Source of the DNA: Thaumasiovibrio subtropicus | GTDB taxonomy: Bacteria > Pseudomonadota > Gammaproteobacteria > Enterobacterales > Vibrionaceae | NCBI RefSeq assembly: GCF_019703835.1 | Contig: NZ_AP023054.1 | Location: 3,285,580 to 3,349,579, forward strand | Direction of reading: 5' to 3' | DNA: 64,000 bases | In this document: positions 48,416-52,769 of the stretch, one piece after another | Layout: every line of letters begins with the position of its first letter | Position numbering within the stretch: position 1 is the stretch's first letter | The notes under the pieces: model-generated | Database searches by the model: none | Told to the model about the DNA's origin: nothing | Seen by the model: the letters and a program-made list of their open reading frames with translations, nothing else | Made by a program: the position numbers and the translations under genes

Positions 48416-49555
48416 ATGTCTATCCACACTATTGATTACACAGTATTAGCGCAAAATATCAAGAAATGGGGAAAAGAACTGGGATTCCAGCAGGTTGGGA
48501 TTACAGATGTCGATCTACAAAATCAAGAAAAAGCCCTGCAAGATTGGCTAGATAACGGTTATCACGGAGAGATGGAGTGGATGGCGAGACACGGCATGAT
48601 GCGTGCCCGTCCAGATGAACTCTTACCGGGGACACTGCGCGTTATCAGCGTGAGCATGGACTATCTCCCTCCTGAAGCCGGCTTTGCCGAGACCTTAAAA
48701 CAGCCGCATAAAGCCTATATTAGCCGTTATGCGCTTGGACGAGATTATCACAAACTCTTGCGCCAACGACTTAAACAGCTGGGCCAAAAAATTTCGGCTG
48801 AAGTGGAGCAACTGGGATTTCGTCCTTTCGTTGATTCCGCTCCAATACTTGAACGCCCTCTCGCAGAAAAAGCCGGATTAGGGTGGACGGGAAAGCACTC
48901 GTTAATCCTCAATGCACAAGGCGGCTCTTGGTTCTTTCTCGGCGAATTGCTGGTAGATATTCCTTTACCAGTAGATTCGGCCGTCGAAAATGAATGCGGT
49001 CGTTGCGTCGCTTGCAAAACCAGTTGCCCAACAGGCGCAATCGTTGATGATGCCGTGATTGATGCAAGACGATGCATCTCCTACCTGACTATTGAACTAG
49101 ACGGCATCATTCCAGAGGAATTCCGCACCGCAATAGGAAACCGCATATATGGATGCGACGACTGCCAGCTTGTTTGCCCGTACAATCGCTACAGCAGCCT
49201 AACCAACGAGAAGGACTTTCACTGTCGCCCACAGTTGTATCAACAAGACTTACTCACTTTGTTCCTTTGGGATGAAAAAACCTTCCTTTCAAAAACAGAA
49301 GGTAGTGCGATTCGACGTATTGGGCACGAAAAGTGGCTACGAAATATTGCCGTCGCCTTAGGGAATGCCCCTTATTCGGATAAGTTTGTGGATGCGCTTG
49401 AGTCAAGGCTCGGCTTTTCGGAAATGTTAGATGTGCATTTACATTGGGCAATTCAACAACAGATACAACATCGCAAAGCAGCAACGCATACCCGTCAAAA
49501 CAAAACCGCACGCTTGATCCGCATTGTGGAAAAAGGCTTGCCACGCGATGCATAG
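48416..49555 (+). CDS. queG: Epoxyqueuosine reductase QueG
   Basis: 379 residues. A cobalamin-dependent iron-sulfur enzyme: final step of queuosine formation in tRNA. Two 4Fe-4S clusters: CGRCVACKTSCPTGAI and CDDCQLVCPYN. The DUF1730 N-terminal part contains DSAPILERPLAEKAGLGWTGKH. It diverges from nnr with only about 16 bp between starts, as in E. coli. Confidence 0.96.
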   Translation: MSIHTIDYTVLAQNIKKWGKELGFQQVGITDVDLQNQEKALQDWLDNGYHGEMEWMARHGMMRARPDELLPGTLRVISVSMDYLPPEAGFAETLKQPHKAYISRYALGRDYHKLLRQRLKQLGQKISAEVEQLGFRPFVDSAPILERPLAEKAGLGWTGKHSLILNAQGGSWFFLGELLVDIPLPVDSAVENECGRCVACKTSCPTGAIVDDAVIDARRCISYLTIELDGIIPEEFRTAIGNRIYGCDDCQLVCPYNRYSSLTNEKDFHCRPQLYQQDLLTLFLWDEKTFLSKTEGSAIRRIGHEKWLRNIAVALGNAPYSDKFVDALESRLGFSEMLDVHLHWAIQQQIQHRKAATHTRQNKTARLIRIVEKGLPRDA

Positions 49556-50128
49556 CCCCCTTCGACTATTCACAAAAAAGTCACAAACTCGGAGCAACAT
49601 CAAATTTTAAATTCAAATGTGGAAAACGTTTTCAGATCTGGTGTAATTGGCGCGCTTTTTGGATTTTAAACACAATTGGGGATTACGGCCTTTATAACAA
49701 ACTCACAAGTTGGATAACATTTTAGTAAGCTGTTCACGACCTCTTAAGATAGTCACAAGACACTGTTTTTAATACAAAAAATAAAACGAAAATACTTGTG
49801 GAAAAGTTCAGTAACTTGTTAAATCTAGTCTCTTACGAAGAAAGAAACCCACCGATAACACTGAATATCACCAGAGTTATCCACAAAAAACAAGCTGTGG
49901 ACAAGTCTGTGAAAGAATGATTCAAAAACAGCTAAACCTCAGAGAATATAAGGCTTCGCATAGCTTCTTAGCACATGATTACCTATGCACCAAACAAGTG
50001 CGTCCATGTACTGATTGAGAAAGATATAATGAGTATGTTGTGTCGACCTAGCATAAGGCCATTAGATGATGCTTCACAGCATTAACGCCTTACGGCGGAA
50101 GCAGCGATACACGCTGACGAGTTGAATT
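49556..50128. other. Non-coding region with DnaA-box-like sites (datA-like locus)
   Basis: No gene is visible. It holds one perfect DnaA box (TTATCCACA, 49877-49885) and four near-matches: TGTGGACAA (49896), TGTGGAAAA (49618 and 49797) and GTTGGATAA (49709). It is AT-rich. In E. coli the DnaA-titration site datA lies in the same place, between queG and the glyVXY tRNA genes. Confidence 0.6.
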
Positions 50129-50188
50129 TGGTTGCGGGGGCCGGATTTGTACCGGGCGGCGCATCCGTCGACGGCCTGAGGGTTATGA
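50129..50188 (-). pseudogene. Degenerate tRNA-fMet-like copy 1
   Basis: Keeps the 3' acceptor strand with CCA and the T-arm sequence, but the anticodon-to-5' half is lost and the region between is enlarged (GGGCGGCGCATCC insertion). Confidence 0.75.
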
Positions 50189-50219
50189 CATTGATAACAC
50201 CCAAACTATCGAAATATGT

Positions 50220-50296
<77 letters not shown>

Positions 50297-50334
50297 TCCG
50301 TATTCATCGTTAAGCACGATGAGAGCTTTTTGTT

Positions 50335-50410
50335 TGGAGCGACACACGAGGTTCGAACTCGTGACCTCAACCTTGGCAAGGTTGCGCTCTACCAGCTGAG
50401 CTAGTGTCGC
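50335..50410 (-). tRNA. tRNA-Gly (GCC), copy 1
   Basis: 76 nt with CCA; GCGACACTAGCTCAGCTGG start, anticodon loop TTGCCAA, T-loop GTTCGAA. Confidence 0.97.
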
Positions 50411-50449
50411 ATCATTTTTCATCGTTAAGCACGATGAGAGCTTTTAATT

Positions 50450-50518
50450 TGGTGCGCACACGAGGTTCCCGTTCTTCAAGGCTTAGGCGTGACCTCAACC
50501 TTGGCAAGGAAGCTTGCC
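50450..50518 (-). pseudogene. Degenerate tRNA-Gly-like copy 1
   Basis: Retains the anticodon-stem segment CCTTGCCAAGGTTGAGGTCACG and a 3' CCA, but the T-arm region is expanded and the 5' acceptor and D-arm are absent. Confidence 0.75.
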
Positions 50519-50552
50519 TGCGCTTTCACTGATGACTCAATGAAATCAAATT

Positions 50553-50628
50553 TGGAGCGACACACGAGGTTCGAACTCGTGACCTCAACCTTGGCAAGGT
50601 TGCGCTCTACCAGCTGAGCTAGTGTCGC
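50553..50628 (-). tRNA. tRNA-Gly (GCC), copy 2
   Basis: 76 nt, identical in sequence to copy 1; folds as a canonical cloverleaf. Confidence 0.97.
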
Positions 50629-50667
50629 ATCATTTTTCATCGTTAAGCACGATGAGAGCTTTTAATA

Positions 50668-50737
50668 TGGTGCGTCACGCGAGGTTCCTGTTCTTCAAGG
50701 CTTAGGCGTGACCTCAACCTTGGCAAGGAAGCTTGCC
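50668..50737 (-). pseudogene. Degenerate tRNA-Gly-like copy 2
   Basis: Same degenerate form as copy 1, with small base differences and one extra base. Confidence 0.75.
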
Positions 50738-50771
50738 TGCGCTTTCACTGATAACTCAATGAAATCAAATT

Positions 50772-50847
50772 TGGAGCGACACACGAGGTTCGAACTCGTG
50801 ACCTCAACCTTGGCAAGGTTGCGCTCTACCAGCTGAGCTAGTGTCGC
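50772..50847 (-). tRNA. tRNA-Gly (GCC), copy 3
   Basis: 76 nt, identical to the other Gly copies; a degenerate fMet copy follows 2 bp to the right. Confidence 0.97.
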
Positions 50848-50849
50848 AT

Positions 50850-50908
50850 TGGTTGCGGGGCCGGGTTTGTACCGGGCGGCGCATCCGTCGACGGCCTGAG
50901 GGTTATGA
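50850..50908 (-). pseudogene. Degenerate tRNA-fMet-like copy 2
   Basis: Same form as degenerate fMet copy 1; one base shorter in the acceptor G-run. Confidence 0.75.
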
Positions 50909-50939
50909 CATTGATAACACCCAAACTATCGAAATATGT

Positions 50940-51016
<77 letters not shown>

Positions 51017-51054
51017 TCCGTATTCATCGTTAAGCACGATGAGAGCTTTTAATT

Positions 51055-51124
51055 TGGTGCGTCACGCGAGGTTCCTGTTCTTCAAGGCTTAGGCGTGACC
51101 TCAACCTTGGCAAGGAAGCTTGCC
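51055..51124 (-). pseudogene. Degenerate tRNA-Gly-like copy 3
   Basis: Same degenerate form and length as Gly-like copy 2. Confidence 0.75.
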
Positions 51125-51158
51125 TGCGCTTTCACTGATAACTCAATGAAATCAAATT

Positions 51159-51234
51159 TGGAGCGACACACGAGGTTCGAACTCGTGACCTCAACCTTGG
51201 CAAGGTTGCGCTCTACCAGCTGAGCTAGTGTCGC
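51159..51234 (-). tRNA. tRNA-Gly (GCC), copy 4
   Basis: 76 nt, identical to the other Gly copies. Confidence 0.97.
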
Positions 51235-51236
51235 AT

Positions 51237-51295
51237 TGGTTGCGGGACCGGGTTTGTACCGGGCGGCGCATCCGTCGACGGCCTGAGGGTTATGA
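51237..51295 (-). pseudogene. Degenerate tRNA-fMet-like copy 3
   Basis: Differs from copy 2 by a base in the acceptor region; same missing 5' half. Confidence 0.75.
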
Positions 51296-51326
51296 CATTA
51301 ATAACACCCAAACTATCGAAATGTGT

Positions 51327-51403
<77 letters not shown>

Positions 51404-51441
51404 TCCGTATTCATCGTTAAGCACGATGAGAGCTTTTTGTT

Positions 51442-51511
51442 TGGTGCGTCACACGAGGTTCCCGTTCTTCAAGGCTTAGGCGTGACCTCAACCTTGGCAA
51501 GGAAGCTTGCC
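51442..51511 (-). pseudogene. Degenerate tRNA-Gly-like copy 4
   Basis: Same degenerate form; acceptor-side bases ACACG instead of ACGCG. Confidence 0.75.
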
Positions 51512-51545
51512 TGCGCTTTCACTGATAACTCAATGAAATCAAATT

Positions 51546-51621
51546 TGGAGCGACACACGAGGTTCGAACTCGTGACCTCAACCTTGGCAAGGTTGCGCTC
51601 TACCAGCTGAGCTAGTGTCGC
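51546..51621 (-). tRNA. tRNA-Gly (GCC), copy 5
   Basis: 76 nt, identical to the other Gly copies. Confidence 0.97.
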
Positions 51622-51623
51622 AT

Positions 51624-51682
51624 TGGTTGCGGGACCGGGTTTGTACCGGGCGGCGCATCCGTCGACGGCCTGAGGGTTATGA
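51624..51682 (-). pseudogene. Degenerate tRNA-fMet-like copy 4
   Basis: First of two adjacent degenerate fMet copies, 90 bp apart. Confidence 0.75.
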
Positions 51683-51713
51683 CATTAATAACACCCAAAC
51701 TATCGAAATATGT

Positions 51714-51772
51714 TGGTTGCGGGGCCGGATTTGTACCGGGCGGCGCATCCGTCGACGGCCTGAGGGTTATGA
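51714..51772 (-). pseudogene. Degenerate tRNA-fMet-like copy 5
   Basis: Second of the doubled pair; the acceptor region resembles copy 1 more than its neighbour. Confidence 0.75.
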
Positions 51773-51803
51773 CATTGATAACACCCAAACTATCGAAATG
51801 TGT

Positions 51804-51880
<77 letters not shown>

Positions 51881-51918
51881 TCCGTATTCATCGTTAAGCA
51901 CGATGAGAGCTTTTAATT

Positions 51919-51988
51919 TGTTGCGTCACGCGAGGTTCCTGTTCTTCAAGGCTTAGGCGTGACCTCAACCTTGGCAAGGAAGCTTGCC
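51919..51988 (-). pseudogene. Degenerate tRNA-Gly-like copy 5
   Basis: Same form, but the terminal CCA is changed to ACA (plus-strand TGT instead of TGG). Confidence 0.75.
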
Positions 51989-52022
51989 TGCGCTTTCACT
52001 GATAACTCAATGAAATCAAATT

Positions 52023-52098
52023 TGGAGCGACACACGAGGTTCGAACTCGTGACCTCAACCTTGGCAAGGTTGCGCTCTACCAGCTGAGCTAGTGTCGC
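52023..52098 (-). tRNA. tRNA-Gly (GCC), copy 6 (first in the transcript)
   Basis: 76 nt, identical to the other Gly copies; it lies closest to the promoter at 52145-52172. Confidence 0.97.
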
Positions 52099-52144
52099 AA
52101 TATCTAACAGGAAATTGTTCAAAGTTCCCCGTTCAGGGCTGCGC

Positions 52145-52172
52145 ATTATACGAGGAATTTCTTCAGATGCAA
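52145..52172 (-). promoter_or_regulatory. Promoter of the tRNA operon
   Basis: On the minus strand TTGCAT, 16 bp, then a perfect TATAAT, followed by a GC-rich discriminator (GCGCAG) typical of stringently controlled stable-RNA promoters. It lies 47 bp upstream of the first tRNA-Gly. Confidence 0.75.
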
Positions 52173-52223
52173 GAGGTCGAATTCAATTTTTTTTATGACT
52201 TCAACTAATCGTACAAAAAAAAC

Positions 52224-52769
52224 TCAAACCTTAAAAAAGTGCTTTCTATAATGCTGCAATTCTGCAATTGACTCTCGGATATCATCCAACGCTAGGTGGG
52301 ATCCGCTTTTCTTAAAGCCTGACAAAATCTCAGGCTGCCAACGTCTTGCAAGTTCTTTCACTGTGCTAACGTCGAGATAGCGGTAATGGAAATATTGCTC
52401 TAACTCTGGCATCTGCTTATAAAGAAAACGGCGGTCTTGTCCAACACTATTCCCACAAATAGGTGAAACACCTGGTGCAACCCACTCTGACAAAAAGGCA
52501 ATCGTTTGTTGTTGTGCCTGTTCCAAAGTGACTTCTGATGCTTTGACACGATCCACCAATCCGCTCCCAGTATGCGTCGTGGTACACCACTCATCCATTT
52601 TATCTAACTCGTGCTGAGGCTGATGGATAGCAAGCACTGGACCTTCAGCGAGAATGTTCAATTCGGCATCTGTCACTATGGTGGCAATCTCAATAATCTT
52701 ATGAGTTTCTGGGTCTAACCCCGTCATCTCTAAGTCTATCCAAATCAAATTCTGTTCGCTGATTGCCAT
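52224..52769 (-). CDS. orn: Oligoribonuclease
   Basis: 181 residues of a DEDDh exonuclease that degrades 2-5 nt RNAs and pGpG. Motif [22 protein letters not shown], then [11 protein letters not shown] and the C-terminal [14 protein letters not shown]. Essential in many gammaproteobacteria. Divergent from rsgA, as in E. coli. Confidence 0.97.

Follow-up and report, generated by a model that had tools for sequence, protein, structure and literature searches.

Genomic context and DnaA boxes of the locus

The window analyzed here is a 64,000-nucleotide stretch of chromosome 1 of Thaumasiovibrio subtropicus (positions 3,285,580-3,349,579 of 3,621,685 bp). It contains tsaE-nnr-queG, a gap, a tRNA-Gly array, and orn-rsgA-psd, which is the mirrored order of E. 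coli K-12 (psd-rsgA-orn-glyVXY, datA, queG-nnr-tsaE) with the same relative orientations. A preliminary description of this DNA had called the gap gene-free, and no credible gene was found from the queG stop codon at 49555 to the first tRNA gene at 50220, which encodes tRNA-Met(CAT) and is followed by tRNA-Gly. A search of 49300-52300 found no Rfam families besides tRNA. The contig start, which is the oriC end, holds a DnaA-box cluster and the dnaA gene, so that the distance from the locus to oriC is about 286 kb. In E. coli, datA is about 467 kb from oriC. The features of the locus are listed in Table 1.

Within the array (50125-52100), tRNA-Gly(GCC) genes alternate with tRNA-Met(CAT) genes. 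The spacers of the array carry repeated tRNA-like remnants (e.g., 50130-50185 and 50460-50530), which were called by neither ARAGORN nor Rfam.

Table 1. Features of the queG-tRNA locus in window coordinates. Identity is the mean column identity in the Vibrionaceae alignment; the last two rows give the corresponding loci of two reduced genomes.
Feature	Position	Strand	Sequence	Identity	Remark
queG	48416-49555	+			Left neighbor; stop at 49555
DnaA box A	49618-49626	-	TTTTCCACA	0.996	Perfect; strand and order like E. coli datA box 4
DnaA box B	49666-49674	+	TTAAACACA	0.962	48 bp from A
Place of the family IHF-like motif	49770-49784	+	WAWCAANNNNTTR in the family		Midway from B to C; degenerate in T. 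subtropicus
Extra box	49797-49805	-	TTTTCCACA	0.566	Perfect, yet unconserved in the family
DnaA box C	49877-49885	+	TTATCCACA	0.944	Perfect; TTACCCACA in many relatives
DnaA box D	49896-49904	-	TTGTCCACA	0.996	TTATCCACA in nearly all relatives
TCTGT flank and box 7-like site (7')	49906-49916	-	TCTTTCACA (7')		12 bp outward from D
tRNA array	50220-52098	-			6 tRNA-Gly, 4 tRNA-Met(CAT); read towards the element, like glyVXY in E. coli
orn	52224-52769	-			Beyond the tRNA array, as in E. coli
Reduced-genome locus L200	G003:C1:1094000-1101000				
Reduced-genome locus L201	G020:C9:32000-39000				

Five DnaA boxes had been described at 49618-49904, counted as one perfect and four near boxes. All five were found as placed, and the box at 49877 is perfect, but the count changed. 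When a perfect box is defined by the usual consensus TTWTNCACA, those at 49618 and 49797 are perfect too. Box D of T. subtropicus has one mismatch. A box 7-like site at 49908-49916 extends the DnaA signal slightly rightward past 49904. The 287 bp of the cluster contain three perfect boxes compared to 0.08 expected, and none of 2000 dinucleotide shuffles reached three. The A-B pair occurs only once in its own genome.

Four of the five perfect boxes in the entire 64-kb window fall in 49525-49885, within 360 bp. One of these four, TTTTCCACA at 49525, is within queG, at its 3' end. Only some relatives have a box there too, so that it is probably a codon coincidence.

Conservation of the box array in Vibrionaceae

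The gaps between queG and the tRNA genes of Vibrionaceae were compared, with 68 loci used for spacing and 52 gaps aligned. The array A(-), B(+), C(+), D(-) was present in 67 of the 68 loci, among which a few species are possibly counted twice because two collections were combined. In the sole exception, L025, the array was absent after queG. The family pattern is TTTTCCACA(-) for A, TTAAACACA(+) for B, TTAT/CCCACA(+) for C, and TTATCCACA(-) for D. These four are the top-conserved 9-mers in a gap that is otherwise unalignable across the family: the box identities in the 52 gaps (Table 1) compare with 0.481 for the other 484 columns, and the TCTGT flank after D reached 0.996. The preliminary description had named lack of box conservation in close relatives as a result that would speak against it, and A, B, C, and D were found to be conserved family-wide. 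In the single sister species compared, 40 of 42 box and flank bases were identical versus 285 of 603 outside.

The spacing within each pair was nearly fixed. A and B are 48 bp apart in 64/67 loci and 47 bp apart in the other three, and C and D are 19 bp apart in 58/67 loci and 18 bp apart in nine. The distance between A and C varied from 243 to 263 bp (67 loci). A box near the offset of the 49797 box from A was also seen in several Photobacterium.

At the genome level, the string CCACA-N8-12-TGTGGAYAASTCTGT was matched in 105 of 121 family genomes, and the reversed control in none. Several genomes without the exact string still have the array with an altered flank. Three Vibrionaceae lineages (g2, g5, and g11) deviate from the array. 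No such array was found at queG in Shewanella, Pseudoalteromonas, Alteromonas, and the other families sampled beyond the Vibrionaceae and those of the Enterobacterales type.

These data bear on whether the boxes could have come together by chance in A+T-rich DNA. The boxes are themselves A+T-rich and the gap is moderately so, which would favor a chance cluster, but the shuffles, the family-wide conservation at fixed spacing, and the empty reversed control in 121 genomes all speak against it. We gave this explanation practically no weight and rejected it as already refuted by conservation.

In an Aliivibrio-like genus (g10, e.g., L126 and L127), the TCTGT flank was found on both C and D, so that the pair is palindromic around a 10-bp spacer. 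This arrangement resembles an inverted duplication of the box 2/box 7 module.

An IHF-like motif between the box pairs

IHF sites were scanned for with WATCAANNNNTTR. Between A and D of the window there were no matches at zero or one mismatch and eight at two mismatches; as IHF sites are degenerate, IHF may still bind here. The sister species also lacked a consensus-grade IHF match between the boxes. Across the family, an IHF-like motif, WAWCAANNNNTTR, was found; AAACAANNNNTTA is a common form of it, and some species have the exact IHF consensus. Under the strict pattern, 41 of 67 loci have the motif at A+138 to A+152, and 59 of 67 do with one position relaxed, while the other 19-bp bins had a median of 0 matches. 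In Photobacterium, its center is about 106 bp from B and about 108 bp from C. The motif is on the same strand as the IHF site of E. coli datA. The T. subtropicus genome encodes IHF-alpha and three relatives of IHF-alpha. Two parts of the first reading proved weaker than proposed: the IHF site of the family is degenerate in T. subtropicus, and the layout and spacing of the boxes are unlike those of E. coli.

One possible explanation for the boxes is pure titration, in which DnaA would be sequestered early after initiation and ATP hydrolysis would not be promoted. The presence of several near-consensus boxes close to oriC and the lack of a recognizable IHF site in Thaumasiovibrio fit this explanation. 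However, titration needs box number alone. It would call for neither the near-constant spacings within the pairs (47-48 and 18-19 bp) nor the placement of an IHF-like motif halfway between the pairs in 59/67 loci. We, therefore, regard pure titration as unlikely.

Retention of the array in reduced genomes

Two genomes of 2.1 and 2.6 Mb (G003 and G020) have no queG, and no tRNA gene was found in the 7 kb around the locus. In both, boxes A to D are retained downstream of orn, with A and B 48 bp apart and an IHF-like motif at A+150 or A+151. Since the array was kept after the loss of queG and the tRNAs, it appears to be selected for itself and not for its neighbors. That such small genomes have kept it suggests that the array is of importance to them as well.

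It has been reported that DnaA at datA box 2 of E. coli hinders read-through from glyVXY (PMC10950094), and the boxes could similarly regulate or block transcription of queG or the tRNA array. Yet queG and the tRNAs are both transcribed into the gap, so neither gene starts there, and the array persists in the two genomes without these genes. With convergent neighbors and an array that survives their loss, control of transcription was judged highly improbable and was rejected.

Comparison with DARS sites

A DARS-type site, which recharges DnaA-ADP to DnaA-ATP, was also considered. The strand order of C(+), D(-), and 7'(-) is the same as that of DARS core boxes I(+), II(-), and III(-), and the last two are 12 bp apart in both. 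The E. coli DARS1 and DARS2 cores are spaced I(+)14 II(-)12 III(-) compared to C(+)19 D(-)12 7'(-) here, so that the first spacing is 5 bp longer, which is half a helical turn. The address is also not that of DARS but that of datA, to which the box 2 flank likewise corresponds.

DARS2 was already reported in V. cholerae (PMC8682772). We found a DARS2-like core pattern in 84 of 121 Vibrionaceae genomes. In three loci that were checked, this core sits in the rppH-mutH interval and is near-identical to that of E. coli. The T. subtropicus genome has one as well, at G000:C1:524053-524082 between rppH and mutH, with three changes from the family consensus. Because of the spacing of 19 instead of 14, the datA address, and the presence of a DARS2 core elsewhere, at rppH-mutH, the identification of the element as a DARS site was rejected as very unlikely.

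Proposed identity and function

The element is a selected site of predicted DnaA binding with a box layout unlike that of E. coli. The conserved and spaced boxes, the identity to box 2, the IHF-like motif, the retention in reduced genomes, and the separate DARS2 suggest that this selected element is almost certainly an orthologue of datA. As a whole, the sequence evidence makes it probable that the element serves as the Vibrionaceae datA, lowering initiator activity as a non-coding control site on chromosome 1 to which DnaA binds. Orthology with E. coli datA is claimed here, and not identical geometry.

The initiator itself is similar in the two species: T. subtropicus DnaA shares 86% identity with its E. 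coli counterpart, with 91 of 94 residues identical in the DNA-binding domain IV and R285 kept. The mechanism of DDAH in E. coli was taken from PMC10380432. By analogy, the element would be copied early and initiator activity would then be lowered. DnaA-ATP may load on A/B and on C/D/7', and IHF bending would join the two clusters; in Thaumasiovibrio, weaker IHF binding or HU could take this part. The resulting DnaA-DnaA contact would stimulate the hydrolysis of ATP, in line with the proposal for DDAH in E. coli. Read-through transcripts from the tRNA array may displace the bending protein, as in E. coli. The bending step in Thaumasiovibrio is in doubt.

A more far-reaching interpretation is that Vibrionaceae have a distinct datA built on the opposed pairs A/B and C/D, which in Thaumasiovibrio would need no dedicated IHF site and would operate by means of HU or direct DnaA-DnaA contact. 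DnaA inactivation would then have been rewired while the address was kept. We consider this doubtful.

Work on datA has so far treated it as a feature of E. coli. In the open-access literature searched, we found neither a Vibrionaceae datA nor the rearranged layout described; an earlier mention in subscription papers is possible. The timing of chromosome 1 in Vibrionaceae also sets that of chromosome 2. A layout that is fixed in the family and unlike that of E. coli at the same address provides natural variants with which the geometry of DDAH can be tested, namely the boxes, their spacing, and the need for IHF.

Comparison with E. coli datA and other DnaA-box clusters

DnaA-box clusters outside oriC repress untimely initiation in B. 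subtilis and Streptomyces, according to passages in PMC10950094 and PMC13220808 that cite this work. Those clusters have other addresses, and B. subtilis has no IHF. In E. coli, datA is the DDAH locus (Kitagawa 1996; Kasho and Katayama 2013, as cited in passages of PMC10950094 and PMC5835720).

In most relatives, box D and its flank read ACAGAGTTATCCACA (on the minus strand, with queG on the plus strand), which is letter-identical to E. coli datA box 2. Box 2 and box D have the same orientation relative to queG, and the box 2 core is also the most strongly conserved part of the Enterobacterales gap. TTGTAAACA is located 12 bp outward from E. coli box 2, and TNNTNCACA is often found at the same offset in Vibrionaceae. 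Box 7 of E. coli is described as a two-mismatch box adjoining box 2 (PMC5835720). TTGTAAACA fits this description, and its assignment as box 7 is our own. Many genomes of the order have one or two copies of the 15-mer TGTGGATAASTCTGT, and this also holds for families that lack it at queG. Since the core alone also occurs elsewhere, orthology is argued from the core, address, and orientation combined.

In Enterobacterales, box 4, the IHF site, and box 2 were found at stable spacings. Two other families of the order (f4 and f10) are of this type, with boxes 4 and 2 separated by 161-165 bp. The Vibrionaceae genus g11 looks intermediate between the two types.

The Vibrionaceae element differs from E. 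coli datA in several ways. Vibrionaceae add the inverted boxes B and C, so that the pair A/B faces outward and the pair C/D inward. The span from A to D is about 280 bp, while in E. coli boxes 4 and 2 together span about 160 bp. The E. coli IHF site is 69 bp from box 2, whereas the Vibrionaceae motif is about 126-129 bp from D, so the E. coli geometry is not matched. The motif itself usually differs at one position, with AAACAA in place of WATCAA, and Thaumasiovibrio has lost it. No E. coli counterparts were identified for B and C, and no counterpart of box 1 and no clear one of box 3 was seen in Vibrionaceae; A and B are on the side of the IHF site where E. coli has box 3.

The two elements share the address between queG and the tRNA-Gly array, the orientation, the ACAGAGTTATCCACA core with a weak box 12 bp outward, and a position near oriC. 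They also share a box on the same strand at the opposite end, with A similar to box 4, and an IHF-like site between the clusters. The proposal in the preliminary description that the datA position between queG and the tRNA-Gly array is conserved was, therefore, supported, as the address, the orientation, and the box 2/box 7 core are common to Vibrionaceae and E. coli.
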